Positions 1 to 15,272 of a stretch of DNA of 27,263 nt are shown here, piece by piece. The notes under the pieces were generated by a model. The model did no database searches. It was not told the DNA's origin and worked only from the letters and a program-made list of their open reading frames with translations. This DNA is from a virus. Location of the stretch: the IMG/VR virus record IMGVR_UViG_3300047471_000594, positions 1-27,263 of that record; one strand, written 5' to 3'. How positions within the stretch are numbered: position 1 is the first letter of the stretch; the number at the start of each line of letters is the position of its first letter. The position numbers were made by a program, and so were the translations under genes.

Positions 1-3
1 AAT

Positions 4-120: not shown

Positions 121-290
121 TGGATGGAACCATCATCAGGCCAGTTAATTCTGGCGACGGGCTTGTGGCCCGTTTCGTATGCCATGTCGTTGCTGGAATC
201 CAACCAGCGGCCCAGCGGGCTGCAAGAGCACGACGTTGCGAGAGCACGCCACCACCCGGTCGATTGGGCGGTGGCGGCGGGTCGGTTTTG

Positions 291-315
291 GTCTTCGGGG
301 TTTGTCTTCGGGGTT
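291..315. repeat. Short tandem duplication
   Basis: GTCTTCGGGGTT occurs at 291-302 and again at 304-315, a 13-base period. It lies in non-coding DNA; no role is evident. Confidence 0.6.
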
Positions 316-621
316 CCTCGGAGAGAGTCGCCTGGGCCTGGGCTGAACGTGCTCCCTAGACTCTCTCCGTCTTACTTCGTGACCGCGTCCATCTCGACGT
401 TCGGGGGTGCTGACCTCGTCTCTCGACGATTCATCCCGGCGCATCGCGCTGGTCGTTTCCGTTCTGGCGCCTTTGGCTCCGGTCTTCTGGACAGTAAGGG
501 CAACCCGTTCCCGGTCACGGTCCGCTTAACACGACAGCGAACTCCTCCAAATATACGCGGAGGGCAGCAACCGCGCAAGTGGAAAACGCACCATTTGAGC
601 AGAAAGTTGATAAACTGCCTA

Positions 622-650
622 ATTACAGCAGTTTACGGGCACCAAATAAA
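622..650 (-). promoter_or_regulatory. Candidate leftward promoter overlapped by a palindromic operator
   Basis: Read leftward, TTTATT (650-645) and TGTAAT (627-622) are separated by 17 bases, resembling sigma70 -35 and -10 boxes (3/6 and 5/6 matches). The -10 lies in the centre of a perfect 8-bp inverted repeat, TAAACTGC-N9-GCAGTTTA (611-635), which has the geometry of a repressor site. It sits in an A+T-rich island of otherwise G+C-rich DNA. It would drive leftward genes beginning near 120 and beyond the window. Prediction by eye only. Confidence 0.35.
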
Positions 651-756
651 TGCGTTCTGCTGCCCTCCAGACGGCTGCGCGCCCCACGAGGGCGCATTCC
701 TAGCTCCAGAAAACGGAGCCGATTTTGCCCGGTTTTCTGCTGCCCAAATGCGCGAA

Positions 757-792
757 ATGCCGCCCCAGAGCATCTCGGCTCCGAGGCGGCAT
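757..792 (-). terminator. Hairpin after the last gene of the leftward series
   Basis: ATGCCGCC (757-764) is perfectly complementary to GGCGGCAT (785-792). On the leftward transcript this 8-bp stem lies about 30 bases past the stop codon at 823 and is followed by only a short TTT. A second inverted repeat, CAGAAAAC/GTTTTCTG (707-739), and a third, GCGCCC/GGGCGC (679-695), follow. The cluster could end the long leftward transcript or protect its 3' end. Confidence 0.4.
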
Positions 793-822
793 CCGGTTGC
801 GAGCGTTTGCGAGGTCGATGCG

Positions 823-1725
823 TTAGAACGGAGCCTTGCCGCCGCGCGGCGTGGATGCTCCGGCATCCACCTCGTCATCGTCTGACCCAGCTTCACGGTC
901 GATGACGATGGTCTTGTCGGACAGGTCCTGCGCGTATTCCATCGCCTTGCGATACCAGGTCGGTCCAGGCTCATTGGTCGGGACATAGCCCACCTGGTCG
1001 ATGACCGGCACGCCGTACACGCCACCCTCCTTGCCCGGCACCGGACGGGTGCGGATCGAGTAGATGACGCCGTAGATGGGCACCGACTGGTCGCCCTGGC
1101 TCGCGTGCATCTTGATGAAGCCGTTCAGGTCCGTGACGGCACGGCGATTGTCCTTGTTCGAGTGCTTGATACTGATGGCCACCGGCACCGCGTCACCGTT
1201 GCCGAAGAGGAGCAACGAGATGTACTCATCGAACATCGTCGCCTTCGGCGCCAGCCGCGTTCCGTCCGGACCCGCCGTCCAGTTCAGCCGTTCGTCCACG
1301 AACTTCCCACCACGATACGCGGTCGGCACGTTCATGTCGATGATGCCACCACCTTCCTTGCGCGGTCGGAACTCAATGGCCTTCACATCACGACGGACGG
1401 GAATGAAGAACAACGGCCCATTGCCGTAGATCTGCTTGGTCGAGTCGTTGAACATCTGGGTGACTTCCAGCCCAGGGATGCGCTTCTCACCGGGCAGGAC
1501 CTCATCCGAGGTGCCCTGGGCGATGACCAGCCTGGGCAGTCGAATCTCGTGCGCGCCGATATCCTCGGTGCCGCTCTTGTCTCCCGAGGGAATGAAGTCA
1601 GGCCGGTTGTGGAAGCCGAGTTCACCTGCGTCGATGATGAGCGACATCGCATCGGTCTGGTCGATGACGGCGAGGGCTTGCTTGACGGGTTCTGGTTGTG
1701 TTGGTTTCTTTGCCACTGTTTCCAC
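823..1725 (-). CDS. Conserved phage protein, possible ssDNA-binding protein
   Basis: This 300-aa protein has no motif that I recognise with certainty. Its central part (about residues 45-110) contains LPRLVIAQGTSDEVLPGEKR and a following segment ending in GNGPLFFIPV, a layout seen in conserved phage proteins encoded beside replication genes. The C-terminus has an acidic patch (SDDDEVD) and ends in Ala-Pro-Phe. Bacterial SSB proteins also end in an acidic tail closing with Pro-Phe, which binds partner proteins. That tail and the position after the helicase and polymerase suggest a single-strand DNA-binding role, as inference only. It is the last gene of the leftward series and is followed by hairpins. 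Confidence 0.75.
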   Translation of the reverse strand: METVAKKPTQPEPVKQALAVIDQTDAMSLIIDAGELGFHNRPDFIPSGDKSGTEDIGAHEIRLPRLVIAQGTSDEVLPGEKRIPGLEVTQMFNDSTKQIYGNGPLFFIPVRRDVKAIEFRPRKEGGGIIDMNVPTAYRGGKFVDERLNWTAGPDGTRLAPKATMFDEYISLLLFGNGDAVPVAISIKHSNKDNRRAVTDLNGFIKMHASQGDQSVPIYGVIYSIRTRPVPGKEGGVYGVPVIDQVGYVPTNEPGPTWYRKAMEYAQDLSDKTIVIDREAGSDDDEVDAGASTPRGGKAPF

Positions 1726-1762
1726 CTTCTCTGTTCGGTTGTCTATCGTCAGTTTGTGATTG

Positions 1763-1781
1763 GTCCCGACACCCTCGGGAC
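1763..1781 (-). other. Intercistronic hairpin
   Basis: GTCCCGA (1763-1769) pairs perfectly with TCGGGAC (1775-1781) around a 5-base loop. It lies in the 62-base gap between two leftward genes. No T-run follows, so mRNA processing or stabilisation is as likely as termination. One arm contains a copy of the CCCGAGGGT motif that recurs across the window. Confidence 0.45.
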
Positions 1782-1787
1782 AACGGG

Positions 1788-2336
1788 TCAGTCGTCGTCG
1801 TCCTTGCCTTTGCTCCCTGCGCGGCGTGGGACGACCTTCTCAATCAGCTGCGCGGCTGTACCCTCGGGCACCGTCGCACCAGCCAGGAGCCGTTCCTTCA
1901 CGATGGCGTTCATCCGAGTGGGCCACAACTGGAGTTCGTGACCCAGCCCATTCTTGATACACCAGAGACGGAACTGTTCCTTGTCCACCACCTTCCCTTT
2001 CGGCTCGGATCGCACAAACACCGAGTCACCCGTGGACAGCTTGACCTGGTTCGGCTTCGCGCCGTACAAGCCCCATCCGGCTTCCGCCCGGTTGGCGGAT
2101 TCGATGAGCAGCTGTTCGATGGCGTTCAACGTGATTTGGTTCGCATAGCGTTCTTCCTCGATGCGGTCATCCACGTCGCGTGCCGCGAAGTACAGCGCAG
2201 CGAGGGCTTCTGGATTGATGTCCGTGGCCGCGCTGAGCCGTGTCTTCTCTTCGACAACCTTCAGTTGGTATGCGGTATCCTCCGGTTCTGCCTTCTTGAG
2301 TGTCTTCTTGACCTCGTCATACTTGCCTTTGGCCAT
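1788..2336 (-). CDS. Conserved phage hypothetical protein beside helicase
   Basis: The 182-aa product begins MAKGKYDEVKKTLKKAEPED and is rich in predicted helix in its first half. Residues about 110-160 resemble a segment common in phage proteins encoded next to helicases: a Val-Arg-Ser-Glu-Pro-Lys-Gly-Lys-Val-Val-Asp stretch, then FRLWCIKNGL, then a Lys-Glu-Arg-Leu-Leu-Ala-Gly turn. It ends in a lysine/aspartate-rich tail (GKDDDD). GAGAAGG precedes the start at good spacing. Position points to DNA replication; the biochemical role is unknown. Confidence 0.8.
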   Translation of the reverse strand: MAKGKYDEVKKTLKKAEPEDTAYQLKVVEEKTRLSAATDINPEALAALYFAARDVDDRIEEERYANQITLNAIEQLLIESANRAEAGWGLYGAKPNQVKLSTGDSVFVRSEPKGKVVDKEQFRLWCIKNGLGHELQLWPTRMNAIVKERLLAGATVPEGTAAQLIEKVVPRRAGSKGKDDDD

Positions 2337-2349
2337 CCCACGTCCTTCT

Positions 2350-2365
2350 CTCGGAGCGTTCCGAG
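2350..2365 (-). other. Small hairpin upstream of a start codon
   Basis: CTCGGA-GCGT-TCCGAG forms a perfect 6-bp stem in the 72-base gap between the helicase stop and the next leftward start. On the transcript it lies immediately 5' of the ribosome-binding site of the 1788-2336 gene. It might affect translation or processing. Confidence 0.35.
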
Positions 2366-2408
2366 GAGCCGAGTCTACTAAAATCGAGGGTGAATAGCGA
2401 CCGTAAAA

Positions 2409-4034
2409 TTACTCATCCATCAGCAGTTCGCGCCACGCGCTAGTGGTCATATCCGCCAGACTCTCTTTGGCCATCAGTGTCGCGAGGACCTTATGGTCAA
2501 TGGTCTTCTGGCCCTTGGGTCCCGTCGCAATCAGGTCGAAATAGCTCACCGGTTGCGTCTGGCCTGGACGGTGTACGCGGTCTTCGCTCTGGAGCCGCGT
2601 GCCATAGCGGTAGCTGTTCGACATGTACAGCACCGTATGCGTCGCGACGAGGGTGAGCCCACGACCACCCGCCGCTGGATTGCCCACGACCACCACTGGA
2701 CCCGAGGGTGCCGTGTCTGGGCTGAGCAATCGTTTTGCGGCTTCGCGCTCCTCCTCGGGTTGTCCACCGTAGATGCCACCCACGTGGATCGTTCCATTGC
2801 GGAACGTCTTCAGCTCAGCGATGGCTCGCAACAGTTCCGGACGGAACGTACACCATACCAACAGCTTGAAGTTCGGCTCCTCTTCCAGCCGGTCGGTGAG
2901 CCATCCGAGGAAGTGGTCCAGCTTCTCCCGCCCCACTTCCTGGACACGGTAGTCTTTCTGCGGGATGACGATGGCGTCCGCAGCCTGTTCCCATGACTCG
3001 CCATCGATGTCGTGGGTCACGCCTGGAATCATCGCGTCCTGTTGTACGAGGTCGATGTCCTCGACACCGCCCACGAAGCCGTTGGTGATTTGCGCGAGCC
3101 GCATGATCTTCGTGATGACCTGGGGAGACGTGGACATCGAGGAGTCGCTCAACCAGACCATCATCTCATCGCGCATCTTCTTGTAGACCGTCCACGTCTC
3201 GGTGGTCAATGGAACGGTCATCACGACACTCGGCAGTTTGGCCGGAAGGTCCTTGAGACAATCGGTCTTGAGCCGTCGAAGGACGTAGGGTGCGAGGCGT
3301 TTCTGGAGGTCTGGGATGTTCACCCAGCTGCCTACGGTGCGAATGGGGAAGCCTCGTGGACTGGTGAGCGGTCTCCCGCTCTGGCTCAGCACCGGCTTCA
3401 TGATCGCGTAGCGGAGACAGAACTGGGTGTACGACTTGCACACCAGGATGTTCTGGCTCATCAGGTTCGCCTGGCTGAACAGGTCGCCCACCGAGTTCTC
3501 GATGGGTGTTCCATTGAGCAGCACGACACGTCCGCACTTCGCTCGCAGCTGGACGCACGCTGCCGTCTGTTTCGACTTGTGGCCTTTCACCGCGCTGGAC
3601 TCGTCCAAGACGAGGAGCGTGCGCGCCGTCGCATAGGGCATCAACGTCGCGAGCCGTTGAGAACTCCGCCCGATGAACTCATAGTTCGTGATGATCCACT
3701 GGAGCCGTTTGTCCGTCTCTGGGCCCCACATCCACCCTCGGAGTCGCTGGTGGTATTCGAGAATCTCTGCCGAGACACTGGACCATAGGTGCTTCGACAG
3801 TTCTCCGAACTCCGGTTCATACCAGACGCCTCGCACCGCTGCCGGCGCAATGACGATGGCGCGGTCGATGAGCCCTCGCATCCACAGGACCATCGCCGCG
3901 TCGATGACCTGTTTCGTCTTCCCCACGCCCATCTCGTCTGCGAGGAAGAAGAACGGCTTGGCCACCAGGCGCTCAATGCCCATCAGCTGATGTTCGTAGG
4001 GTGGGAGTCTGGCGTGTTCGAGTTCGGGAATCAC
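2409..4034 (-). CDS. SNF2/DEAD-type superfamily 2 helicase
   Basis: This 541-aa ATPase has the SF2 helicase motifs in order. They are a Q-like PPYEHQ near residue 11, Walker A DEMGVGKT (33-40), a DExx box DESS (about 144), and LNGTPIEN (about 173). Near the C-terminus are GGRGLTL and a final EDRVHRPGQTQPV, the SNF2 motif VI pattern. Such phage enzymes remodel or unwind DNA during replication or recombination. The frame is open further upstream, but that part lies antisense-free over a neighbouring real gene. I chose the GTG at 4034 because AAGGAG precedes it by 8 bases and the GTG shares its first G with the TAG of the upstream 54-aa gene. Confidence 0.93.
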   Translation of the reverse strand: MIPELEHARLPPYEHQLMGIERLVAKPFFFLADEMGVGKTKQVIDAAMVLWMRGLIDRAIVIAPAAVRGVWYEPEFGELSKHLWSSVSAEILEYHQRLRGWMWGPETDKRLQWIITNYEFIGRSSQRLATLMPYATARTLLVLDESSAVKGHKSKQTAACVQLRAKCGRVVLLNGTPIENSVGDLFSQANLMSQNILVCKSYTQFCLRYAIMKPVLSQSGRPLTSPRGFPIRTVGSWVNIPDLQKRLAPYVLRRLKTDCLKDLPAKLPSVVMTVPLTTETWTVYKKMRDEMMVWLSDSSMSTSPQVITKIMRLAQITNGFVGGVEDIDLVQQDAMIPGVTHDIDGESWEQAADAIVIPQKDYRVQEVGREKLDHFLGWLTDRLEEEPNFKLLVWCTFRPELLRAIAELKTFRNGTIHVGGIYGGQPEEEREAAKRLLSPDTAPSGPVVVVGNPAAGGRGLTLVATHTVLYMSNSYRYGTRLQSEDRVHRPGQTQPVSYFDLIATGPKGQKTIDHKVLATLMAKESLADMTTSAWRELLMDE

Positions 4035-4198
4035 TAGGTTTTCTCCTTCTGCGCCTTCTTCACGGGCCACTCCCACGACACGCCGTCGAAGGTGTTGCGC
4101 CCGTCGTGGGTTCGGTCGTATTGCTTGAGCCACTCCTCGGAGATCTGAGTGCGTGATCGGACCAAGGATTTCAACAACGAGATCCATTTCTTCAACAT
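4034..4198 (-). CDS. Small hypothetical protein (54 aa)
   Basis: A short ORF fills the gap between the 200-aa gene and the helicase. It starts MLKKWISLLKSLVRSRTQIS and ends KKAQKEKT, giving a basic, tryptophan-containing peptide with an amphipathic N-terminal helix. GAGGAGG lies just before the ATG, a strong ribosome-binding site. Its TAG shares one base with the helicase GTG, so the two genes are probably translationally coupled. I recognise no family. Confidence 0.72.
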   Translation of the reverse strand: MLKKWISLLKSLVRSRTQISEEWLKQYDRTHDGRNTFDGVSWEWPVKKAQKEKT

Positions 4199-4219
4199 GG
4201 TCTCCTCCTCTTGCCATAG

Positions 4220-4822
4220 CTAATAATCCCTGACCTCCCATATGATCGTGTTCCGTCTCGGAAGCACGCCCACTGGGCATGAGAACGCTGCCAGCTCTAT
4301 GGCCGCCTCGGGATACCACTGGAGTAGTAGCATCACGTCTTCGAAGGAGGCAGGATCCAGACATCGTCGCAGCGCCATCATCGTCTGGAGATAGCCCATC
4401 GGCTGGTGGTAGCCTGCCGCCATCGTCCACCGCATCGGCGGAAGCCCAGTGGGATACCCGTTCTTGGCGAGGGTCTCCAGGTCTGCCACGGTCATCGTGG
4501 CGCGTTCACAGAAATACCCTTCCAGCCCCTTCTCCGTCCGCACCATCTCGCCCTGGAGGATGGCGCTCAGGTTCGGCACCGCGCCGTCCATCATGAACGT
4601 GTACCCTCGGGCACTCCATTCCTGCGCGGTGGCGTGTGCTTGGTCCCGAGGGACAAGACACCATGCGCCCTTTGCACCCTTCGCCGTGTTGAGTTGGCGG
4701 AAGCCGATCATGGGAACGCCTGACGCATAAGCGTCATCGACACTATGCCATAAGAGGGTGCGGTTGCCGAGTCGTTCTTGTTCCCAGAGGGTGAAGAACT
4801 CCCGTTTGTTCTGAATCTTCAT
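4220..4822 (-). CDS. Hypothetical phage protein downstream of TS homologue
   Basis: The product is 200 aa from MKIQNKREFFTLWEQERLGN. The open frame extends upstream, but only by overlapping the thymidylate synthase homologue. The start at 4822 forms an ATGA overlap with that gene's stop and is clearly preferable. The protein is mixed alpha/beta with a C-terminal segment ending in NTIIWEVRDY. No catalytic motif is evident. Tight coupling to the TS homologue suggests a part in nucleotide or base modification, but that rests on position alone. Confidence 0.8.
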   Translation of the reverse strand: MKIQNKREFFTLWEQERLGNRTLLWHSVDDAYASGVPMIGFRQLNTAKGAKGAWCLVPRDQAHATAQEWSARGYTFMMDGAVPNLSAILQGEMVRTEKGLEGYFCERATMTVADLETLAKNGYPTGLPPMRWTMAAGYHQPMGYLQTMMALRRCLDPASFEDVMLLLQWYPEAAIELAAFSCPVGVLPRRNTIIWEVRDY

Positions 4823-5874
4823 CTCATCCAACGCCGTTCCAGCCACTCGATGCCGGCACAGGTCCAATCGTAGTGGTTGGTGGAGGACCGTTCCAACATC
4901 TCGATGGCGTCTCGGGTCTCCCCATCTTTGTGGAGCCGGTGCGCCATGAACATCTGCATGATCGTCTTCGCCCACGGCTCGTCATACTCCCGGTAGTTGC
5001 CCATATCGGCACTCTCCAGGAGTTGCCGGACGGCTTCCACGTGGTCGTATCCGAAGAGGGTGGGCTGGAACAGCTTGACCGGAAACAACAACGGCTTCAC
5101 GGCATCCATCGTCGTGTAATAGTCGCCATGGTCTGCCGGCTTGTGTCTCAGGTCCTTCACCTTCTCCAGCGTGGTGAGATACCCGTGCCAGTTCACGCTG
5201 ATCTGGGTGTAGGTTCCAACCGGCACGCCGATCCAGAGCGCCATGTATTCGAGGAGCATACTGAAGTGGACCGCGTTTGCGCCGTAGGCACCCCAGACGA
5301 TGTCGTTGGACCGACAGAAGACGACGAGGTGGAGCCGTCCGTCCGGACCGATCTGGAAGGTGGCCGTGTCGTTACAGGGCAGGTCCTTCCCTTGCCGGCC
5401 CAGGTCGAGTTCGGCAGACCACATCTGGAGGACGCATCGACGGTCGGTGGGATCGTGGGTGAGCTGTTGCGCGATGATCGCCAGCTGGTCAAAGGGCTTC
5501 CGGAACTCATACGCGCTGGCGCCTTGCGCGGACCGAGCCTTGAACGCCTTCCGCCAGCGGTAACCATACGCCCCATGCAGCGTCTTCCCGTCGTCGCTGA
5601 AGTTGTTCATGTTCGAGGAGTAGCGTGCCGGCCCAGCCACGTCATTCCGGCCAGCTAGCATCCACAGCGCTTCGTACAGATGGAAGAACGGATTGGCGTC
5701 ACGCTCCGGCCAGAACATGACCCGCTCGCATGGATGGGTGTAGATGGTCGCCACCGGCACCGGAGCCTGGAGGACTGGGCCGTTGCGCGAGTCGCGTTTG
5801 ATGCCGACCTCGTACAGCAGCCGAACGGCTTGAGGGAGTGCCTGGTGGACGTTACGCACGTGGAGTGTGATCAT
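4819..5874 (-). CDS. Thymidylate synthase homologue, probable dUMP hydroxymethylase
   Basis: This 351-aa protein belongs to the thymidylate synthase fold family. It shows HGAYGYRWR (about 100-108), DPTDRRCVLQMW (about 141-152), the nucleophile region KDLPCNDTATFQ with Cys167, and the phosphate/substrate loop CRSNDIVWGAYGAN (187-200). In classical TS the nucleophile sits in Pro-Cys-His; here it is Pro-Cys-Asn. The dUMP-sugar motif usually written His-x-Tyr-x-Asn-His reads QISVNWH. Asn200 aligns with the Asn that selects uracil over cytosine, favouring dUMP as substrate. Phage homologues of this type make either dTMP or 5-hydroxymethyl-dUMP. The surrounding hypermodification genes favour the hydroxymethylase, by inference. 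Confidence 0.9.
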   Translation of the reverse strand: MITLHVRNVHQALPQAVRLLYEVGIKRDSRNGPVLQAPVPVATIYTHPCERVMFWPERDANPFFHLYEALWMLAGRNDVAGPARYSSNMNNFSDDGKTLHGAYGYRWRKAFKARSAQGASAYEFRKPFDQLAIIAQQLTHDPTDRRCVLQMWSAELDLGRQGKDLPCNDTATFQIGPDGRLHLVVFCRSNDIVWGAYGANAVHFSMLLEYMALWIGVPVGTYTQISVNWHGYLTTLEKVKDLRHKPADHGDYYTTMDAVKPLLFPVKLFQPTLFGYDHVEAVRQLLESADMGNYREYDEPWAKTIMQMFMAHRLHKDGETRDAIEMLERSSTNHYDWTCAGIEWLERRWMR

Positions 5875-6256
5875 CGCTAGTTACCCTTTTCCGTCTACCC
5901 ATATTGAACTTCGGATTCTTCCATGCATTGATGGTGCCTTCGCGTTGTTTCTCCCTTGCCAGTCTGGCCCTTTCAGGGTCATTGGGCGGAAAGAATTTGA
6001 GGGGCAGTGTCGGGTCTCTCAGATAGTCAGCGGCTCGGATTAACAGCCGTGGGTTGTCTCTGAACCCACCAAGACCAATGTTACACCCGTTGCACAGAAG
6101 ACCTCGAACCATTCCTGTCTCATGGTCATGGTCTATACAGAGTCCAATTCCTGTTGGTACACCACCGCAGATATCGCAAAGACCTCCGGTCTCCCTTTTG
6201 TACTCATCGATGAACTCCCGTTGGAAGGGAGCCAGCTTCTGCCTCCTAGACATCAT
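5852..6256 (-). CDS. HNH / endonuclease VII-like nuclease
   Basis: The 134-aa product carries the recombination endonuclease VII/HNH signature: CDICGG near residue 27, then IDHDHETGMVRGLLCNGCN (about 45-63), which combines the His-Asp-His catalytic site with two Cys-x2-Cys zinc ligands. Such enzymes cut branched DNA or act as nicking endonucleases; small ones are often mobile. The start is one of two adjacent ATGs (6256 or 6253). The gene overlaps its upstream neighbour by ATGA and the TS homologue by 23 bases, so it behaves as a settled operon member and not a recent insertion. Confidence 0.88.
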   Translation of the reverse strand: MMSRRQKLAPFQREFIDEYKRETGGLCDICGGVPTGIGLCIDHDHETGMVRGLLCNGCNIGLGGFRDNPRLLIRAADYLRDPTLPLKFFPPNDPERARLAREKQREGTINAWKNPKFNMGRRKRVTSDDHTPRA

Positions 6257-6795
6257 CTACCCTTCCATTGGACTTGGCTTCCGGCTTTACGCCATAACAA
6301 CTCGACGATGCCGTAAGGTTGTGTACCAGATACGTCTACCATATCATTCCAATCCAGTGCTGCTTCTATAGTTGCCCAACTAGTCCAATAATCGAAGAAG
6401 CCTGCACCTTCATAGATCCCTCCTCCATGGCCATGACAAAACTCTGAGTGAGCGCTGCGAGGGTGAAGTCCAAGAAACAAAATGGGCAATCCATATCTCT
6501 CACTAGAGTCGTCTTTGCTTGCTGGGTGACCTGATAGCTCAAACTCCTTGTGAACCTCTAACGGCTTCACTTCAACAAAGAAGGAATGACCGCCCCCGCA
6601 TTCACTATGCCCGCATCCAAATGTCATGCGAAAATCAGGAACCCAATCTCTGAAATCTACGGGTTCGTATTCCCATTGCCACCCACAAAGATCGAACATA
6701 GCTGCCCATCGTGCTTCGAGACGGGAACGAAATTGTACTCCAGCATATATCGTTGGATTCGCCTTAATCAAACCTTGTGTAATCACCACTATCAT
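6253..6795 (-). CDS. PD-(D/E)XK nuclease-like protein
   Basis: This 180-aa protein begins with an N-terminal helix containing YAGVQFRSRLEARWAAMFD, followed by WEYEP, WVPDF (about 51-55) and FFVEVKP (about 72-78). Glu27, Asp54 and Glu75-x-Lys77 give the spacing of a restriction-endonuclease-like core (E...PD...ExK). Similar proteins are common in phage genomes, annotated as PD-(D/E)XK nucleases of unknown target. A Cys/His-rich insert, CGHSECGGGH, lies between the PD and ExK motifs and may bind zinc. It is coupled by ATGA to both neighbours. Cleavage of unmodified host DNA is an attractive guess. Confidence 0.8.
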   Translation of the reverse strand: MIVVITQGLIKANPTIYAGVQFRSRLEARWAAMFDLCGWQWEYEPVDFRDWVPDFRMTFGCGHSECGGGHSFFVEVKPLEVHKEFELSGHPASKDDSSERYGLPILFLGLHPRSAHSEFCHGHGGGIYEGAGFFDYWTSWATIEAALDWNDMVDVSGTQPYGIVELLWRKAGSQVQWKGR

Positions 6796-7085
6796 CCTTG
6801 GTGAACAGAACTCGGAAGCCGTGCCGGACTGGACACGACCACCAACGCTTCAAACTCGATGTTCCGCTGCCCGGTTCGACGTTCGGTGAACGCCAGCGGG
6901 AACCGAACCAACGCCATACCCTCGCATCCCTCCCATCCTGGGGCAACCTCGACCACGAGACCGACGTGCCCCACGAGGCTGCGCCGGTCTTCTTCCGACT
7001 CGCCCGAACCCTCCCAGGCGTCCGGTACACTGTCTACTCGCACGTAGTCACCCAGATGTGGATCCACACGCATTGGATAGCCCAT
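6792..7085 (-). CDS. Small hypothetical protein, probably beta-barrel
   Basis: The 97-aa product from MGYPMRVDPHLGDYVRVDSV alternates hydrophobic and charged residues in short strands (GDYVRV, VGHVGLVVEV, MALVRFP, FEALVVVS), the look of an SH3-like small barrel. The start at 7085 overlaps the previous gene's TAA by one base (TAATG), favouring it over upstream codons. No enzyme motif is visible. Being within the base-modification cassette, it might be an accessory or DNA-binding subunit. Confidence 0.7.
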   Translation of the reverse strand: MGYPMRVDPHLGDYVRVDSVPDAWEGSGESEEDRRSLVGHVGLVVEVAPGWEGCEGMALVRFPLAFTERRTGQRNIEFEALVVVSSPARLPSSVHQG

Positions 7086-7963
7086 TACGCTCCTCCGTTG
7101 TACTTCGCTCTGGGTGTGCCCTCGTTGAACTTGACGCGGCAATACTTGTCGAACTCGCACAACGAGTGCTCGATGTCCCGCATCTCGAAATGGGGAAACT
7201 GAAGAGGTTCCCCGGAGCTAACTGGATGGATGAAATCGGTCTCCAACTCGATTCCATGGCGCAACAGATGGCGCATCGAGTCGATGGCCTTCGCGTCTGG
7301 CTTGGACGCCATCCTCAGTCGCTGGAGTCCACGCTTGGCGCCGGGCCCAGGGTTCGCCCACGTCATGATATCCGAGGCGTCTTCCAGGAGCCGTGTGTGG
7401 CGGTAGTCCGTCACGATCTCATAGGCCATGAAGCCACCGATGCTGTCCACGGTCCGAAGGACGTTGAACACCTCCTCCAGCCGGTTCGATGTCCGTGCGG
7501 TCACGGCAAGAGTCTCCCGGAGGTTCCACAGGTCCGTACAGACGTCCACGATGGCGTCGATCTTCGGCAGGCCTGGTCGAGAGTAGACGATGTGTGCGCC
7601 TGTGAATACCTGTTCACCCTCGTCCAGCGCCGCAGTCAACATCTCGATGACCGCCTGCGGGTTCCAGTCGTCCTGCCAGCCGAGCCGCTCACCGGTGCCC
7701 CACCAGTTGAACATCCTGAACCAACCGCAATTGAACGCGAGGAGGGCTGGATCATCCCAACGATGCGGCGTGAGGAAGTTCTCACGCAGCCAGACCGTGC
7801 CCGTATCGTTCTCCCGGAACGGATTGGTGAATTTGTACGACTGGAGGATGGGATCGTCCGTCCACGGCTTCGGATGACCCGCCTGTCGCTTCAAGTAGAT
7901 GCGATGGCGCTCTGCAACCCAATACCAGAACAACGATTCAGGAGCCGTCGTCAAGTCACGCAA
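7085..7963 (-). CDS. 5-hmdU DNA kinase helical-domain protein (aGPT-PPlase-like)
   Basis: The 292-aa product matches, from memory, the helical domain of phage 5-hydroxymethyl-dU DNA kinases, first described as alpha-glutamyl/putrescinyl-thymine pyrophosphorylase-like. Key segments are FWYWVAERHRIYLKRQAG (12-29), PWTDDPILQSYKFTN (33-47), a central ANPGPGAKRGL, and the C-terminal MRDIEHSLCEFDKYCR. The fold is thought to be a helix-hairpin-helix glycosylase-like base-flipping domain that presents the base to the kinase. In studied phages it is often fused to the P-loop kinase; here the kinase is two genes upstream. Translation appears to start at TTG 7963, eight bases inside the methyltransferase gene, with GAGGTG upstream. 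Confidence 0.85.
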   Translation of the reverse strand: MRDLTTAPESLFWYWVAERHRIYLKRQAGHPKPWTDDPILQSYKFTNPFRENDTGTVWLRENFLTPHRWDDPALLAFNCGWFRMFNWWGTGERLGWQDDWNPQAVIEMLTAALDEGEQVFTGAHIVYSRPGLPKIDAIVDVCTDLWNLRETLAVTARTSNRLEEVFNVLRTVDSIGGFMAYEIVTDYRHTRLLEDASDIMTWANPGPGAKRGLQRLRMASKPDAKAIDSMRHLLRHGIELETDFIHPVSSGEPLQFPHFEMRDIEHSLCEFDKYCRVKFNEGTPRAKYNGGA

Positions 7964-8468
7964 CGCTCACCTCATTCCCAAGACATGTCCAGCCCTCACG
8001 CGTCTTGCGCGAGAACAACTCAGCATACGGTCCTGCTCGCAGTGTCTCCACAATGGTGTAGAACTCCTCGGGCTTCTCCGAGTGCCGGCCCACGACGGCT
8101 TCAAACGTGGACCGCACCGATTTGTCCAGCGTCTCTGGCTTCCCTCGGACGCCAATGAGACACGTCTCGTGCTCTGCGCGAACGGTGCGCCCCATCCCAA
8201 ACCAACGCTTCCCTCCCGAGGTGCGTTTCAACCAGACCAGTTCCGTCTTGAGCGTGAAGCCCCACGCGTCCATCACGCTCAAGGCTTCCTGCTGCATCGA
8301 GGAGACCCGCCACAAGAACAACGTCGCGTTTGGCGTCATGGGTGGGATCGAGAACCGCATGATCTCCTCGACACTCATCGTCAAGTAGTGCTTCGCGGCA
8401 CCTCTCGCTGGGCCCGGCAGCGAGTCTCCGAATTGCCACGGTGGGTCCGCCACGAGCACGCTATACAT
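7956..8468 (-). CDS. MT-A70 family adenine-N6 DNA methyltransferase
   Basis: This 170-aa protein starts MYSVLVADPPWQFGD. The DPPW at residues 8-11 is the catalytic motif IV of the MT-A70 branch of SAM-dependent N6-adenine methyltransferases. Further family features are a helix after YLTMSVEEI, TLFLWRVSS, an ELVWLKRT strand and the ETCLIGVRGKP segment. The length is typical of phage single-domain members. It probably methylates adenine in phage DNA against host restriction. It overlaps the kinase gene by 8 bases and the helical-domain gene by 8, so it is embedded in the thymidine cassette. Confidence 0.93.
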   Translation of the reverse strand: MYSVLVADPPWQFGDSLPGPARGAAKHYLTMSVEEIMRFSIPPMTPNATLFLWRVSSMQQEALSVMDAWGFTLKTELVWLKRTSGGKRWFGMGRTVRAEHETCLIGVRGKPETLDKSVRSTFEAVVGRHSEKPEEFYTIVETLRAGPYAELFSRKTREGWTCLGNEVSVA

Positions 8469-9027
8469 CGTCCAACCCGAGGGCGGAGAGGACCGCGACC
8501 AACGCCTGTTCGCGGCTGAGCCACTTGCAGTCTACGCCCGCATCCTTCAATCGCGGGATCATCGACTTCTTCAACCGGTCCAGACGGCTGATGGTGTTCT
8601 TGGGATTCAGTTCCCGGTCATCCCCACGTGTGTCGCGACGGGACTGGATCCCTTTGAGACACTCCTCGATGGGTGTCGAGAGGGCGATGACCTTGAGCGG
8701 TGGATGCGCCTTCGAGAGTTCGACGCATCGCCGCACGTCGTCACCGATCATGATACCCTCGTACAGAACATCGCAGCCGTTCTGGGCCGCTGCCGTGACC
8801 AATTCGTACACCATGTCCGGCTTCTGGATCGTATCGCAACCGCCGGTCGGTGTTTCGTAGTGGCCTGGGACGTACAGCGGGGGCTTGAACTCTCGGGTAC
8901 AGAGATACGCGAGTGGTTGCTTGCGCCCGTCGATGAAATGTGGCGTCCGTCCAGGATACTTGGACATCACCGTTCGCACCAGCGTGCTCTTGCCACTCCC
9001 GCCCGTTCCTCGGAGATTGATAATCAT
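8461..9027 (-). CDS. P-loop kinase, probable 5-hmdU DNA kinase catalytic subunit
   Basis: The 188-aa product opens MIINLRGTGGSGKSTLVRTV with Walker A at 7-15. It then has the subgroup-typical GHYETPTGGCDTIQKPD (about 56-72), a Walker B-like CDVLYEG, and an arginine-rich lid QSRRDTRGDDR. This pattern matches the kinases predicted by comparative genomics, and later shown for phage ViI, to phosphorylate 5-hmdU already in DNA, giving a pyrophosphorylated leaving group. The open frame extends 27 codons upstream, but ATG 9027 gives an ATGA overlap with the radical SAM gene. A free 5-hmdUMP kinase is the alternative. Confidence 0.88.
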   Translation of the reverse strand: MIINLRGTGGSGKSTLVRTVMSKYPGRTPHFIDGRKQPLAYLCTREFKPPLYVPGHYETPTGGCDTIQKPDMVYELVTAAAQNGCDVLYEGIMIGDDVRRCVELSKAHPPLKVIALSTPIEECLKGIQSRRDTRGDDRELNPKNTISRLDRLKKSMIPRLKDAGVDCKWLSREQALVAVLSALGLDDV

Positions 9028-10391
9028 CGCACCACCTTCAGGTTCCACGGCTTCCGGAGCATTGGGAGTCTCAACGCCGGAGCCGAGGTCAAAATGTCCG
9101 AACCACACAACGACTCCTCGTGCCCATCACCGCACCGCAGACAGCCCGAGGGTGGACAGACCTCCATGGGCTCAAACCGTCCTGGTTCGACACGACGGTG
9201 CATCGGGACGCGATGCCCGTGACACTGGTCAGCGGTCAAGAACTCCGGACCCATCGAGGTCCACCGCCCGGTCTCCGGATGCTTCGTGTATTCATAGCAC
9301 AAGGAATACGTCATGCCCAGCTGGGTGGCCTTCTTCTGGTAGCGGGCATGGCCTTCGCGTCGATACTCCTCTTGGATGGACTTCTGCCCGCCGCACTGGT
9401 TCTCGGTGAACAGTTCCGCGAACCTGTCGCCGCGTGGCCCTGGGAACTTCGCCTGGATGCGCTGGACCATCGCTCGCGCCCACGCGTGTCCGGCTTCGAC
9501 GAACTTGATGATGACGTGATTGTTCCCCACCGCTGCCAGCCGCTCGAACAGCCGCTCCACGTCCTCATGGTCCACCACTCCGGGCACAATCGGATTGCAC
9601 TGGATGGACGTGTAGATGCCCGCCTGGCGGAGCACTCGAATCTCTTCCAGGTGCTCGTTGAGGCTGATCGCTCCGGGAGAGAGTCGATGCCACGTGTCTT
9701 CGTCCGAGGTGTTGAGCGACTTCTGCGCATAGCTGTACTTGTTCTGGCGCAGAAGGTCGATGGCCCACCCAGGGTAGTGGAGACGGCTGAGGAAGAAGAC
9801 CGGCAAACCGGCATCCACGAACGCCTGCGCGCCCTGCTGGGTGTTATGGTAGTAGTCTTCAATCGAGAGGAACGGATCGATGAATGAGCTGAAGTAGCCT
9901 GCCGCGCTGACTTCCATCGACCTGAGTTGCTTCGCGACGTGCGCGCCGTAGTCCGTGGGGACGGTGATGAGCCCACTTCCCCGATACCCTCGGGTGCCGC
10001 TATTGATGTAGCAGAACTGGCATCCCACCGTGCAATACCCGCCGTAGGGTTGCGTCAGGATGGCGTCCGTCTCGCATGGCCGGTCACGGCTTCCCGCGTT
10101 CGCGCCGTCGTCCTTCCCGCTGTACCAGCCTTGCAGGTCCTTGCCCTTCGCCTGGCGGATGTGAGGCGTGGGATCAAGGTACACCGTGGTCTCGTGGCGC
10201 TCGGTGGCTCCACGAATCATGGCAATACGCGCCCACCGCTGCTTCATTACCCGTCCAGTCACCTCGTCGTGTTTCTCCTCGATAGGTCCGAGGAACTCAC
10301 GCATGTCAGGATCGACGCGCATGAAGTAGGCGTAGGTCTCCTGGAAGTCTTCTTGCTCTTTGTCCGGGTTGTAATCCGTTTCCGCTTGCAT
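9024..10391 (-). CDS. Radical SAM enzyme of thymidine hypermodification
   Basis: The 455-aa protein has the radical SAM cluster motif YCTVGCQFCYIN, with Cys120, Cys124 and Cys127 in the C-x3-C-x2-C spacing that binds [4Fe-4S] and splits S-adenosylmethionine. The barrel region that follows resembles the spore-photoproduct-lyase-like group. A C-terminal cysteine-rich stretch (CPPSGCLRCGDGHEESLC) could hold an extra cluster or zinc. In phage M6 a radical SAM isomerase rearranges the amino acid attached to the thymine methyl group; by context this is its likely counterpart. AGAAGGAG precedes the ATG. A 79-base gap separates it from the PLP gene upstream. Confidence 0.93.
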   Translation of the reverse strand: MQAETDYNPDKEQEDFQETYAYFMRVDPDMREFLGPIEEKHDEVTGRVMKQRWARIAMIRGATERHETTVYLDPTPHIRQAKGKDLQGWYSGKDDGANAGSRDRPCETDAILTQPYGGYCTVGCQFCYINSGTRGYRGSGLITVPTDYGAHVAKQLRSMEVSAAGYFSSFIDPFLSIEDYYHNTQQGAQAFVDAGLPVFFLSRLHYPGWAIDLLRQNKYSYAQKSLNTSDEDTWHRLSPGAISLNEHLEEIRVLRQAGIYTSIQCNPIVPGVVDHEDVERLFERLAAVGNNHVIIKFVEAGHAWARAMVQRIQAKFPGPRGDRFAELFTENQCGGQKSIQEEYRREGHARYQKKATQLGMTYSLCYEYTKHPETGRWTSMGPEFLTADQCHGHRVPMHRRVEPGRFEPMEVCPPSGCLRCGDGHEESLCGSDILTSAPALRLPMLRKPWNLKVVR

Positions 10392-10470
10392 GGTGACTCC
10401 TTCTGTGTCCGAATATCCAGAACATCGTGTCGTGGTCGATGAGGTCCCAATGGTCGAATGTAATCATGCC

Positions 10471-11274
10471 CTACGATCCCACGTTCCAGAAGAGAATCGG
10501 TTGTTCCAACGACTCGATGACGCCTGGGACGTTGAGCCATGCCCAGGCCGGTGTCTCATAGTGGAGATGGGCTGGGAAGGGTGGCAACATCCCGGCACGC
10601 ACTTCGAAGTAGGCACGCTTTTGATCCACCACGCGGAGCCGGTCCAGGTTTGCGTTCGGTTTGCCCCACGCCATGCGCGCCACATCACGCCTGAATCGGG
10701 TCTCCTCGCGTGCATAGCCTTGGACGGCCACGACGGAGCCGGGGAAGCCCCGGAGGACCCCAGCCAGGTGCGTCCCGGTCCCCGTAGGAATGACGATTGT
10801 CCCCGGAGCCAGGGGAAGCCCCAGGACCTCCGCCTCAACCGCCTCTACGGTCTCCGGAAGCCGCAGCCCGGTCGGAAACAAGAACCACTCTTCACCCTCC
10901 AGCGCATCGAGGTGCTGCTGCATCGCATAGCGCATCACGAACTGACGATTGGCCGCGAGTGGAATCAACTCCACACCCAAGGATTGCACGGCCATTGCCG
11001 GTCCAGGGATCGCATTCGGTGTTTTTGCATACCTCGGGTAGCCCACCTTGACGGTGCGTCCGAGGGTGAGACCAATAGTGGCGACCAACTGGCCGTTCAA
11101 ACTCCGTCCGGTATCCACCACGGCGAGGGATGCGGTAGGACGGCGCTCAATGGCGGCCCAGACGCCACGCGCCTTGGACAACGGTGGGAACGGCCAGCAC
11201 AGGTCCTCCCGCTTGACGTGGACCGTGATTCCACGAATGGGATAGGGTTCAATGGGCGTGGGCCGGAGTCTCAT
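10471..11274 (-). CDS. PLP-dependent fold-type II enzyme
   Basis: This 267-aa protein resembles the tryptophan synthase beta/ACC deaminase group. VKREDLCWPFPPLSKARG (20-37) supplies the probable Schiff-base lysine, Lys34. VDTGRSLNGQ (53-62) resembles the substrate-carboxylate loop, and IPTGTGTHLAG (162-172) the glycine-rich loop that holds the PLP phosphate. At 267 aa it is shorter than typical family members of about 320-400 aa. Described hypermodification pathways use PLP enzymes to decarboxylate or otherwise trim the amino acid on the base. It overlaps the upstream gene by ATGA. Confidence 0.88.
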   Translation of the reverse strand: MRLRPTPIEPYPIRGITVHVKREDLCWPFPPLSKARGVWAAIERRPTASLAVVDTGRSLNGQLVATIGLTLGRTVKVGYPRYAKTPNAIPGPAMAVQSLGVELIPLAANRQFVMRYAMQQHLDALEGEEWFLFPTGLRLPETVEAVEAEVLGLPLAPGTIVIPTGTGTHLAGVLRGFPGSVVAVQGYAREETRFRRDVARMAWGKPNANLDRLRVVDQKRAYFEVRAGMLPPFPAHLHYETPAWAWLNVPGVIESLEQPILFWNVGS

Positions 11275-12164
11275 ACGGCCTCAGTCGGCGCAAGCACGCG
11301 CCCAGTATCGCGATAGACGGTCAACCGGTCCATCCGCCGTCCATTCCAGCCAGACATCTCTCCGAGGAGTTCAGCTGGGAAGACGGCACGACGTGCGGCC
11401 CAGAACACCGAGTCAGGCGGCAGCTTCTCAGTCATCATGTCGATGTCATGGCCCACGTAGTAGGTGCCCTTCGCGAGACTGTTGAAATCGCACAGCGCCG
11501 TCTCGAATTGGTCCAGCCCAGTGAATGGGACGCCTGCGCGCAACGCTCGCTGATACCAGGCTTCCTGGAGTTCGCGATTGGTCGCGCATTGTTCGAGTGT
11601 TTCCCCAGTCAACAACGCGAGACCGGGCACCGGCCCAGCGGTCACGCTTCCGCCACCGAGACCGATATCGTTGGCGGTGATCTTGTAGTCCATGACGTTC
11701 TTCAAGAGGTCAGCCCACTTGTAGCTGGACCACGAACCTGCGCCCCATACCTCTTCGAAGTCAGACCGAATCGCCCACCAACCGGTCTGCGGGTCTGGCG
11801 CATCGAGCAACGAGAAGTCTACCCAACCCTTCAACGAGTGATACGGCTTCGCGTTCCGAAATACGCTCTGGATGAACTTGTTCACCGCCTCGGCATTCCC
11901 TCGCATCCCACGGCGTTCCACGCCGGTCGGAAGGGCTGGGAGTAGACGCTCATCAAACGGATGTGGATGATACGTCCAGGCAAACTCCGCGCTGCCAAGG
12001 TGGTAATACGTGACATACAGAATCAGCCGCCACAACTGGAGTTCTTCATCCAAGTGCTCCGTCTGGAAGACAGAGCGCAGGACAGGGTATGCCGGGTCTA
12101 TGTCTTGACTCGTCAGTTGGTATTTCGCGAACGTCGTGAAATCGGTCCATCGGTCTTTCGGCAT
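11271..12164 (-). CDS. Amino acid:DNA transferase-like protein (aGPT-PPlase family)
   Basis: The 297-aa protein is mostly helical and has no P-loop. It contains ILYVTYYHLGSAEFAW (about 48-63), then WSSYKWADLLKNV, and DIGLGGGSVTAGPVPG after it. These match my recollection of the aGPT-PPlase/AADT group, which displaces pyrophosphate from 5-PPmdU in DNA with an amino acid. It is thus the second member of this helical superfamily in the cassette, besides the kinase-associated one at 7085-7963. It is the first gene of the radical SAM/PLP block and ends in an ATGA overlap with the PLP gene. Assignment is from pattern, without a search. Confidence 0.75.
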   Translation of the reverse strand: MPKDRWTDFTTFAKYQLTSQDIDPAYPVLRSVFQTEHLDEELQLWRLILYVTYYHLGSAEFAWTYHPHPFDERLLPALPTGVERRGMRGNAEAVNKFIQSVFRNAKPYHSLKGWVDFSLLDAPDPQTGWWAIRSDFEEVWGAGSWSSYKWADLLKNVMDYKITANDIGLGGGSVTAGPVPGLALLTGETLEQCATNRELQEAWYQRALRAGVPFTGLDQFETALCDFNSLAKGTYYVGHDIDMMTEKLPPDSVFWAARRAVFPAELLGEMSGWNGRRMDRLTVYRDTGRVLAPTEAV

Positions 12165-12205
12165 CCAAGTATCCTAGTGGGAAGGGGTCCCCAAGTAAAG
12201 GGAAA

Positions 12206-12826
12206 TCATATGGCGGAGACGTTCGATCCCAGCAGTTCGCGAAACTGTTGAAGGAACAGTTCCTCCGACTGTCTCCACGTCCATGGAGCCCACGGTCCTA
12301 CGCGGGCCATCTCCTTGATGGTGGGCGGTGGATAGTCTGGCAGGTCAAACATCGCATGGGTCGGTGAGTTCTTGTAGGCTTCGAACCGGACCATGAGCGT
12401 GTCCGCGATGTTCACCAGTGGATGCTGAATCTCTGCACACCCAAACCGGCGATAGATAGTGCGCTGCGTCGTGGCTTCCACCCGACGATACGCGGCAAAC
12501 TCCGGCGAGGCTTTGAGCCACTTCGTCACGTCACCCAGATACGCCTCGGAGGCATCGTGAAGCAACGCTTGGAGCGCCACCTTGCTCGCCCCACACGAAC
12601 ATGTGCCCCGTGACAATCCGCCGAAGGTACAATTCACCTCGTGGAGATCGCACAACCGACTGACGTACACCGAGTGTTGCGCGACGGAGTTGGGCCGCTG
12701 GGTATGCCCACAGAACCGGTTGATGAGCGCGAGGGAGTGAGCGATGTCCTCGATGACAATGTCCGTCTCCTTGACGAAGAGGGGATTGACGCGGAGACCG
12801 GTGAATGTTTCGATGATGGGTGTCAT
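12206..12826 (-). CDS. HD-domain phosphohydrolase (YfbR-like)
   Basis: The 206-aa product starts MTPIIETFTGLRVNPLFVKE. It carries RPNSVAQHSVYV (44-55; His51) and ALLHDASEAYLGDVTKWLK (87-105; His90, Asp91, Glu94, Asp99), the metal-binding pattern of HD-domain 5'-deoxynucleotidases. An insert with CSCG lies between them. Such enzymes dephosphorylate dNMPs or dNTPs. In a phage that replaces part of its thymine with a modified base, a candidate task is removing dTMP or another competing nucleotide; this is inference. The start at 12826 is preferred over a 28-residue extension that would overlap the upstream gene. Confidence 0.88.
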   Translation of the reverse strand: MTPIIETFTGLRVNPLFVKETDIVIEDIAHSLALINRFCGHTQRPNSVAQHSVYVSRLCDLHEVNCTFGGLSRGTCSCGASKVALQALLHDASEAYLGDVTKWLKASPEFAAYRRVEATTQRTIYRRFGCAEIQHPLVNIADTLMVRFEAYKNSPTHAMFDLPDYPPPTIKEMARVGPWAPWTWRQSEELFLQQFRELLGSNVSAI

Positions 12827-12828
12827 GG

Positions 12829-13239
12829 TTAGCGCATGCGCCTGGGCTGATGGTGGAGTTCTCGAAGGAACGCGACGATGAACTTGTGGTTGAATCCGGT
12901 GGTATGGCACATGGGCGTGTATTCCCCAGATGGGTACATATCCCGAGGGTGAACAATCAAAGTGCGCTTGGTTCTTTCAAGCTCCTCGTACACCGCATAC
13001 CAGCAGTCACCCTGGATCGCGAGTCGCTTACACGTGAGGTTCTGAAGGTCGGTCTGGTCGATGTCCGGGTTCGCGTGCTTCACTTCCAGCCAGGACGTTC
13101 GCCCACTCAACGTCATGCTGATATCGGGTCCTCCCGCCGTCGAATCGTTGTGCTTGATGAGCACCGCGTTCTTGAAGAACGGACGGAGGTGATTGTTCAA
13201 CAAGTCATGCAGTAGTGTATGCTCGGTCTCCGTCTTCAT
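12829..13239 (-). CDS. PD-(D/E)XK / VRR-NUC-like nuclease
   Basis: The 136-aa protein begins MKTETEHTLLHDLLNNHL. It contains AGGPDISMTLSGRTSWLEVK (35-54), where Asp39, Glu52 and Lys54 form the PD-(D/E)XK catalytic core, with an N-terminal glutamate on the first helix. Small phage nucleases of this kind resemble VRR-NUC or Holliday-junction resolvases and usually lie next to DNA polymerase, as here. The start at 13239 forms an ATGA overlap with the polymerase stop. Confidence 0.8.
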   Translation of the reverse strand: MKTETEHTLLHDLLNNHLRPFFKNAVLIKHNDSTAGGPDISMTLSGRTSWLEVKHANPDIDQTDLQNLTCKRLAIQGDCWYAVYEELERTKRTLIVHPRDMYPSGEYTPMCHTTGFNHKFIVAFLRELHHQPRRMR

Positions 13240-15272
13240 GCACACTCCTTCCAGTTGCGGCCAGTGGATACATCCCACAAGATGGGGATGCGCAGTTCGG
13301 GAAACGACTGGTGGTTGAGCACGCGGCTGACGCGTCTCGCACTCTCCTGGTCGGGCACGTCCCCATCCGCCTCGTCGTGGACCGTGTAGCGGAGGATGAG
13401 CCCGGTATCCTTGCGCGCCTTGTGCAGCTCAACAATCTTCGTCTTCATGATGTCCGCCGCGCCACCCTGGTCTACCATGTTGAATGCCTTGTGCGCTTCC
13501 CGGTTCTCTTCAGATCGGCTCCGGCGTCCCATGAAAGTAGTGACGTAGCCTCGGTGCTCATATTGGGCGTGGAGTTGGTCGCCTCGATGACAGCGGTCCG
13601 TACACTTCGACATGTACAGATGAGACGCCAGATCCAGAAGCCCTCGGACCTCGGGAAGTTCCTGGTCATAGATGGCGCGCACTTCCTTCGTGGCGGCGAG
13701 GGCGGGATGTTTCCACTGCTTGAGATCCTTGATCTGGTGGTACAGCGCCTCGCTGATATGGCCGAGCATCAGCGCCTGTTTCAGCATCTGGGCTCCGTAC
13801 ACGTAGGCGAAGTTCAGATCCTTCTGCTGACGATAGGTCTGGTCAGGCTTATGCGGCTTGATGCGCGACCACATGTACTTGTGGAAACTGATGGGCTCAT
13901 TCGGGCTTCCCTTCGGCTGGCCCTCCTCCACCCACTTCCAGAATCGTTCCACCTCACCCTCGTATTGCTCGGTGACCCGAGGGTTGTTCGCGTAGTGGGC
14001 GAAGATGCGATACTCCACCTGCATCGCATCGGCGGCCAGCCACAGCCGTCCACGTTCTCCGGGAATGCGTAGCTGGCGGATGAGGAACAAGTCATCGTCG
14101 TGCGAGTCATCGTCCTCATCGACGCCGAAGGCCACGCGTTGCTTCGCCACCTTCATCTCTTGCTGGATGTTAATCCCGACGTAATGGCCGTGTCCATCGT
14201 CCAGCGCCGCGCTGCTGAATCGACCAGTGATGGTTCCGGCTTTCCCGCCATGGTCGCTGAGCGGGTCTTTCGTCGTCCGCAGCTGATGGAGTGCATAGCG
14301 GAGGATGCCACAGCTATCTACGTTCTTGCGATACTTCGTCAGATACTTACTGTTCAGGTTCGACAGCTTCGCCGCGTAGCGCATCAATCGAACGGCGGGC
14401 AAGTGCGCGTGTTGGGCCACCACCTTGTCGGTGAACGAGGGTGCGCCTGACGGGAGGTATTCGAGGGGCAGATGGAGATACTCCCACAGCCGCTGGCGGT
14501 CCGCTGGCGACCGAGGGTTCACCACAAACCCTACCATCTTCGCCAGGTCATACAACGCCTTCTCCGCCCGTCGTTTGACCTCCGGGATCCACTTGTCGAG
14601 CAACTCCACGTCGATGGGCGCGCCATTCCGTTCCATCTCGCAGACCGGGAAGATGACCTGATCCTCGAGCGCCCGCACACGCTGGAGGTTCTGCTCATCG
14701 AGCATCGGCCAGAAGACCTCGCGCAACTGATGGACGGCTTCCACCTGGTACAGTGCGCGGTCTACGGTCTCCGCCGCATGATACTCGACCATCCGGCTTT
14801 CATCCACCCTCGGGATGGTGGCTCCACCTACGTAGTCCGTCAACAGTTGGTCGAGGTTGAATCGGAGCCGGTGGTCATCGAGCAATGCCGCGTAGTGCGA
14901 GACATCGCTGACCGTACAGTTCTGGGCTTCCAGATCAATACCCCAGGCGTACATCTGGTGGATGTCGAACTTCGTATGGATGTTCGTCATGTGGAGGTCG
15001 CGCAGTTCACGCTGGGCCCAGCGTTTGCACGTCGCCTCGTCCAGATTCCCTCCGGCATAGCCCCATGGGAGGAAGTGCTTGGAGCCGTCCGGCAGGCGCA
15101 CCGCGATACTGATGGGCAGGTCTCCATCGTACCACTGCACACCCGTCGTCTCCACGTTCATGACGATGTCTTTGATCCCTCGGGAGGCAATCTGGGGTGG
15201 CTCTGACGGTCGCCAGTCGCTGTGGCGCTCCTCTCGGAGCGTATCAAAGAGGGAAGGCTGGCGTTGTCTCAT
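13236..15272 (-). CDS. Family A DNA polymerase with altered 3'-5' exonuclease motifs
   Basis: The 678-aa polymerase has motif A DAMQVEYR (Asp415, Glu420), motif B RQQKDLNFAYVYG (481-493; Lys484, Phe488) and motif C VHDE (631-634; Asp633), with TGRFSS at 349-354. All polymerase residues are present. In the N-terminal exonuclease domain, Exo I reads MNVETTG, with Asn39 where Asp is expected, and Exo II is NIHTKFD. The best Exo III candidate, YHAAE (164-168), has Glu for Asp. Proofreading may be weak, or my alignment may be wrong. The N-terminal QPSLF (5-9) resembles a beta-clamp-binding peptide. An acidic insert lies at 385-394. Confidence 0.95.
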   Translation of the reverse strand: MRQRQPSLFDTLREERHSDWRPSEPPQIASRGIKDIVMNVETTGVQWYDGDLPISIAVRLPDGSKHFLPWGYAGGNLDEATCKRWAQRELRDLHMTNIHTKFDIHQMYAWGIDLEAQNCTVSDVSHYAALLDDHRLRFNLDQLLTDYVGGATIPRVDESRMVEYHAAETVDRALYQVEAVHQLREVFWPMLDEQNLQRVRALEDQVIFPVCEMERNGAPIDVELLDKWIPEVKRRAEKALYDLAKMVGFVVNPRSPADRQRLWEYLHLPLEYLPSGAPSFTDKVVAQHAHLPAVRLMRYAAKLSNLNSKYLTKYRKNVDSCGILRYALHQLRTTKDPLSDHGGKAGTITGRFSSAALDDGHGHYVGINIQQEMKVAKQRVAFGVDEDDDSHDDDLFLIRQLRIPGERGRLWLAADAMQVEYRIFAHYANNPRVTEQYEGEVERFWKWVEEGQPKGSPNEPISFHKYMWSRIKPHKPDQTYRQQKDLNFAYVYGAQMLKQALMLGHISEALYHQIKDLKQWKHPALAATKEVRAIYDQELPEVRGLLDLASHLYMSKCTDRCHRGDQLHAQYEHRGYVTTFMGRRSRSEENREAHKAFNMVDQGGAADIMKTKIVELHKARKDTGLILRYTVHDEADGDVPDQESARRVSRVLNHQSFPELRIPILWDVSTGRNWKECA

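Follow-up and report, generated by a model that had tools for sequence, protein, structure and literature searches.

A phage M6-like thymidine hypermodification cassette with an amino acid:DNA transferase of different descent

We found a gene cassette for thymidine hypermodification in an uncultivated phage. Its best explanation is a post-replicative, glycine-based pathway of the M6 type that leads to 5-(2-aminoethyl)-dU, and we put the probability of this reading at roughly 0.68. That the phage hypermodifies its thymidines in some way is near certain. The cassette fits the M6 kind by every feature that we tested except the descent of one enzyme, the amino acid:DNA transferase (ADDT). The preliminary description of this DNA had proposed a modified thymidine, possibly 5-(2-aminoethyl)-dU, and the match of gene content and order to M6 gp51 to gp58 supports that proposal. 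The same description cautioned that the final structure does not follow from the gene set, which is right, and more so since the ADDT belongs to a different clade from M6 gp51.

The stretch of DNA that we analyzed (here, the window) is a 27,263-nt part of a phage genome, IMG/VR record IMGVR_UViG_3300047471_000594. A second IMG/VR contig (G001; 64,691 bases) carries the window sequence at 99.995 to 100% identity. Because the window runs across the ends of G001, covering 45498-64691 and then 1-8068, the genome is probably closed with a size of about 64.7 kb. Terminase, portal, and Mu F-like genes are on the plus strand at the right end of the window, and the polymerase, the helicase, and the cassette (4819-12826) are on the minus strand in its left part. 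Seven of the cassette proteins had been seen as one leftward series, and all seven are present on one strand, with Pfam and PHROG matches far beyond chance. Three genes in the same stretch, those for the MT-A70, PD-(D/E)XK-like, and endonuclease VII proteins, had gone without mention. From upstream to downstream, starting with the polymerase gene, the order is as follows.

13236..15272, minus strand: family A DNA polymerase, just upstream of the cassette (PF00476, 4.5e-24)
12206..12826, minus strand: HD phosphohydrolase, YfbR-like 5'-deoxynucleotidase (PF12917, 1e-6, passing the cut-off; phrog_318, 7e-44)
11271..12164, minus strand: ADDT (aGPT-PPlase2), actinophage clade (PF18724, 4e-13, passing the cut-off)
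10471..11274, minus strand: fold-type II PLP enzyme, predicted decarboxylase (phrog_7093, 2.5e-35; PALP, 1e-6, below the cut-off)
9024..10391, minus strand: radical SAM enzyme, predicted Gly N-to-C isomerase (phrog_9252, 2e-184)
8461..9027, minus strand: P-loop kinase half of the 5-hmdU DNA kinase (HMUDK) (phrog_800, 1.5e-13; Walker A GTGGSGKST)
7956..8468, minus strand: MT-A70 family DNA adenine methyltransferase, between the kinase halves (PF05063, 6e-24; DPPW motif)
7085..7963, minus strand: HMUDK helical half (aGPT-PPlase1), TTG start (PF18723, 5.5e-52)
6253..6795, minus strand: PD-(D/E)XK-like protein (phrog_21138, 9e-16; PD..ExK pattern by eye)
5852..6256, minus strand: recombination endonuclease VII-like protein (PF02945, 3e-18)
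4819..5874, minus strand: thymidylate synthase (TS)-like dUMP hydroxymethylase (PF00303, 4.4e-19; phrog_5131, 3e-111)

All of the cassette genes are open, and most abut or overlap by a few bases in an operon-like manner (ADDT/PLP, radical SAM/kinase, and kinase/MT-A70/helical). The two proteins previously described as aGPT-PPlase-like are both there, but their roles differ: aGPT-PPlase1 is the helical half of the kinase, and aGPT-PPlase2 is the transferase. These roles were settled by the gene names in the M6-like phage SN1, which are HMase, Nmad5, aGPT-PPlase1, kinase, rSAM, PLP, and aGPT-PPlase2 (PMC9476957). The profile search suggested as a check matched the two proteins to HMUDK_hel (PF18723) and ADDT (PF18724), respectively, at the values listed above.

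M6 DNA contains 5-(2-aminoethyl)-dU (5-NedU) (PMC6449724), and the cassette of M6-like phages is stated to adjoin the polymerase gene (PMC9476957). In M6 (Yuavirus, NC_007809), six core genes have the same order as in the window: gp51 (ADDT), gp52 (PLP), gp53 (radical SAM), gp54 (P-loop), gp55 (helical), and gp58 (TS). The window proteins are 21 to 25, 34, 59, 31, 40, and 46% identical to these, respectively. As in the window, the M6 cassette (gp51 to gp59) comes with an HD gene and with a polymerase of family A (gp62); the polymerases are 23% identical, and each adjoins its cassette. The two layouts differ in that the HD gene lies before the ADDT gene in the window and after the TS gene in M6, the MT-A70 gene sits between the kinase halves of the window, and two nuclease genes stand in the place of M6 gp56, whose counterpart in SN1 is Nmad5. 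No homologues of M6 gp56 (Nmad5), gp65 (dCMP deaminase), or gp46 (RNR) were found in the closed genome G001. This weighs against an M6-type reading, as do the ADDT clade break, the distant PLP enzyme (34%), and a P-loop kinase that falls below Pfam cut-offs. A megablast search of the cassette against phage records gave a sole match of 121 bases, within the TS gene. Two contigs filed as one Anaerolinea MAG (L047 and L049) carry a near-identical M6 cassette, with most genes at 93 to 99%, and are likely misbinned phage; an MT-A70-like gene (34%) follows the polymerase gene in the same stretches.

What was observed directly is gene content, gene order, homology, the retention of catalytic residues, and similarity of fold; from these we infer the reactions, substrates, and end product of the pathway. 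The order of steps is that which Lee et al. are said to have given in 2018 and 2022; the 2022 work reportedly describes how viral metagenomes hold these genes in permuted combinations. The TS homologue would produce 5-hydroxymethyl-dUMP while the HD enzyme would lower competing dTMP, and the family A polymerase would incorporate 5-hmdU into DNA. The P-loop and HMUDK_hel kinase would phosphorylate 5-hmdU at chosen sites to give 5-phosphomethyl-dU. The ADDT would then displace the phosphate with an amino acid, glycine being the likeliest, linked through its amino group. Next, the radical SAM enzyme would reattach this amino acid by its alpha carbon instead of its nitrogen, and the PLP enzyme would strip the carboxyl group to yield 5-(2-aminoethyl)-dU, shielding the DNA from restriction. 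The HMUDK/ADDT logic is common to this pathway and that of Salmonella phage ViI, which makes 5-(2-aminoethoxy)methyl-dU. The earlier wording that 5-hmdU is pyrophosphorylated is doubtful. The intermediate is probably phosphomethyl-dU, since the title of PDB entry 8z2m names 5-phosphomethyl-dU as the substrate and the intermediate is called phosphorylated in PMC6449724.

We compared the active site of the TS homologue with those of E. coli ThyA and T4 gp42. Equivalents of ThyA E58, C146, R166, D169, N177, H207, and Y209 are kept. The retention of the uracil-binding Asn177 (N and not D), together with the catalytic Cys and the phosphate Arg, points to dUMP as the substrate. The HD enzyme likely removes a competing dNMP, e.g., dTMP. 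The 5-hmdU DNA kinase is split over two genes, P-loop and HMUDK_hel, an arrangement that is not new since M6 has it. Its P-loop half scored below Pfam cut-offs, including that of HMUDK_HMUD1, and matched phrog_800 and M6 gp54; its helical half had no significant sequence match to any solved structure.

The radical SAM protein, at 59% identity to M6 gp53, belongs to the gp53 family. The C-x3-C-x2-C motif reported in the preliminary description is C120/C124/C127, invariant in the 11 to 12 aligned sequences. There was no significant sequence match to any solved structure, and the AF2 model (mean pLDDT, 73.6) was closest to spore photoproduct lyase (E value, 5.6e-8; probability, 1.00), itself a radical SAM enzyme, whose target is thymine in DNA. 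Further cysteines are invariant in the gp53 family (C106, C365, C390, C412, C417, C420, and C429) and are mostly C-terminal; C412, C417, C420, and C429 could be the ligands of an additional Fe-S cluster or of a metal. The PLP enzyme belongs to fold type II and to the gp52 family, though on a distant branch, and its Schiff-base Lys is probably K34 in SKxRG, near-invariant in the alignment.

The closest kin of the cassette are three uncultivated phages from IMG/VR (L004, L005, and L006), with radical SAM proteins 72 to 82% identical to that of the window. They share kinase, helical, TS, and helicase homologues with it, and L005 and L006 share the polymerase. The radical SAM tree grouped the window with all three, and the PLP tree grouped it with L004 and L005, on a long branch away from the PLP enzymes of M6 and another phage contig, L020. 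In L005, the radical SAM (74%) and PLP (66%) homologues are paired with an M6-type ADDT; the L004 sequence ends before the ADDT gene. At L006:7858-9760 and L012:7973-9803, an aldo/keto reductase and an FAD-dependent (DAO) oxidoreductase stand beside the radical SAM gene and replace the PLP gene, which is a different finishing branch. Another layout is seen at L008:10001-17331 and L014:3-5720 (also in L007 and L013), with two HMUDK-like P-loop kinases, the ADDT gene after the radical SAM gene, and no PLP gene matched.

The ADDT has a different history. Residues E83, R84, R85, R88, G143, W145, K149, E221, T222, C225, and D240 are kept among its relatives. Among solved proteins, the only good match to its AF2 model (mean pLDDT, 76.5) was the 5-PmdU glycinyltransferase gp46 of PaMx11 (PDB 8z2m/8z2n), with which it shares its fold (8z2m; probability, 1.00; TM, 0.52) at 16 to 18% sequence identity. 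By sequence, PaMx11 gp46 is close kin of M6 gp51, and the solved structures of the ADDT family that turned up were of glycine enzymes only. The window ADDT is nearest to that of L020 (47% identical) and then to the ADDTs of actinophages (about 35%). It is about 21 to 25% identical to M6 gp51, the glycine enzyme, and groups in another clade in trees; orthology to gp51 was not found. By tblastn, the ADDTs of L005 and L006 are of the M6 type, at 40 to 42% identity to gp51. The ADDT of ViI matched the family and is about 16% identical to that of the window. It escaped a single HMM based on 20 ADDTs in the stretch searched; Pfam PF18724 found it.

Two ADDT trees placed the window with L020 and the actinophages, apart from the M6 type. 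A long-branch artifact was ruled out as the source of this split, which stayed at 100/100 in the second tree, from which the long-branch rows ViI, phiW-14, and LilMcDreamy were left out. AU tests on the ADDT tree rejected a grouping of the window with L005 (p, 4e-7) and with L005 and L006 (p, 2.5e-12). A placement of the window just outside the M6 clade was not rejected (p, 0.16) because this grouping does no more than shift the position of the window on the long branch in the middle of the tree. The informative test is that with L005 and L006. Set against the shared kin of the radical SAM and PLP enzymes, the trees and AU tests therefore imply that one gene, the ADDT gene, was exchanged in an otherwise coherent cassette.

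The actinophages with an ADDT of the window's clade are Gordonia phage LittleMunchkin, Rhodococcus phage Tonitrus, and Microbacterium phage Kozie. Unlike in the window, their cassettes apparently make 5-hmU in DNA by a TET/JBP oxygenase, and no radical SAM or PLP genes were matched in the fetched stretches of these three phages. We found no member of this ADDT clade with a known substrate. In Kozie, an FAD-dependent DAO-like gene lies directly 3' of the ADDT gene (L023:1826-2692), possibly a glycine-oxidase-like finishing step in actinophages. L020 has a row of ParB-like, TET/JBP oxygenase, ADDT, PLP, radical SAM, and P-loop kinase genes (1938-8507). Its ADDT is thus of the window's type and lies beside PLP and radical SAM genes, but the ParB-like and TET/JBP oxygenase genes and a different P-loop kinase set this row apart from that of the window, and it joins an actinophage-type front end to M6-type finishing enzymes. 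Because of its TET/JBP oxygenase, 5-hmU in L020 is presumably made on DNA and not in the nucleotide pool.

The M6-type pathway is favored by the gene order, the dUMP-type TS site, the invariant Cys and Lys residues, the family and fold matches, and the presence in L020 of a window-clade ADDT beside PLP and radical SAM enzymes. The same kind of cassette could also make a base other than 5-(2-aminoethyl)-dU, if the exchanged ADDT attaches a different amino acid from glycine and the radical SAM and PLP enzymes then reshape it. In other phages, it is at the ADDT step that other amino acids come in, the AU tests separate this ADDT from those of the radical SAM and PLP kin, and the PLP enzyme is itself on a separate branch. 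Still, the radical SAM protein closely resembles those of M6 and of L005, where the ADDT is of the M6 type; L020 combines the same ADDT clade with radical SAM and PLP enzymes; and the closest fold is that of a glycinyltransferase, in a family whose solved members seen here are all glycine enzymes. We therefore consider a non-glycine product unlikely, though it deserves serious attention, and glycine the likeliest substrate. Since L005 pairs such similar radical SAM and PLP enzymes with an M6-type ADDT, the exchange probably kept glycine and the product of that third step. A slightly more tentative proposal is that the exchanged transferase and the diverged PLP enzyme together take a non-glycine amino acid to an undescribed thymidine derivative, with the ADDT slot being exchangeable and product defining around a conserved radical SAM core.

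A pathway that stops early or is partly inactive would leave 5-hmdU, phosphomethyl-dU, or an N-glycyl adduct in the DNA. Several of the proteins are diverged and the kinase halves are separated by the MT-A70 gene, yet the genes are open with operon-like overlaps, catalytic residues are kept, and the sequence recurs essentially unchanged in the second contig of this phage, making this outcome very improbable. Least credible of all is a set of ordinary nucleotide metabolism and unrelated genes without any hypermodified base. TS, HD, and kinase proteins do occur in such metabolism, but the M6 gene order is kept here, and we know of no role for HMUDK_hel or ADDT outside thymidine hypermodification.

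The remaining genes of the stretch may have other functions. The MT-A70 protein has a VADPPW motif at its N terminus in addition to its PF05063 match, and it is plausible that it adds N6-methyladenine as a second, independent mark. In L006, an MT-A70 gene lies in the same place between the P-loop and helical genes (14421-14960; 58% identical); L004 and L005 gave no match to it. In the nuclease pair (5852-6795), GC3 is 0.40 for the PD-(D/E)XK-like gene and 0.52 for the endonuclease VII gene compared to 0.70 to 0.81 for the pathway genes, and the pair was not matched at the corresponding place in relatives. It is thus probably a late insertion of foreign composition. By domain only, PADLOC labeled the MT-A70 protein as a type II methyltransferase and the endonuclease VII protein as an REase. 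A restriction-modification system of these two is not favored, as an MT-A70 gene occupies this position in L006 too, where no endonuclease VII-like gene was matched.

Taken together, part of the thymidines of this phage are very probably converted to an amine-bearing base that blocks restriction enzymes. An uncultivated lineage outside the known M6 relatives would thereby join the phages with radical-SAM-made bases. Its kin amount to a natural experiment, in that radical SAM enzymes 72 to 82% identical are found with an exchanged transferase in the window or with a reductase and oxidase in place of the PLP enzyme in L006. Such enzymes bear on whether the choice of transferase is enough to determine the final base.
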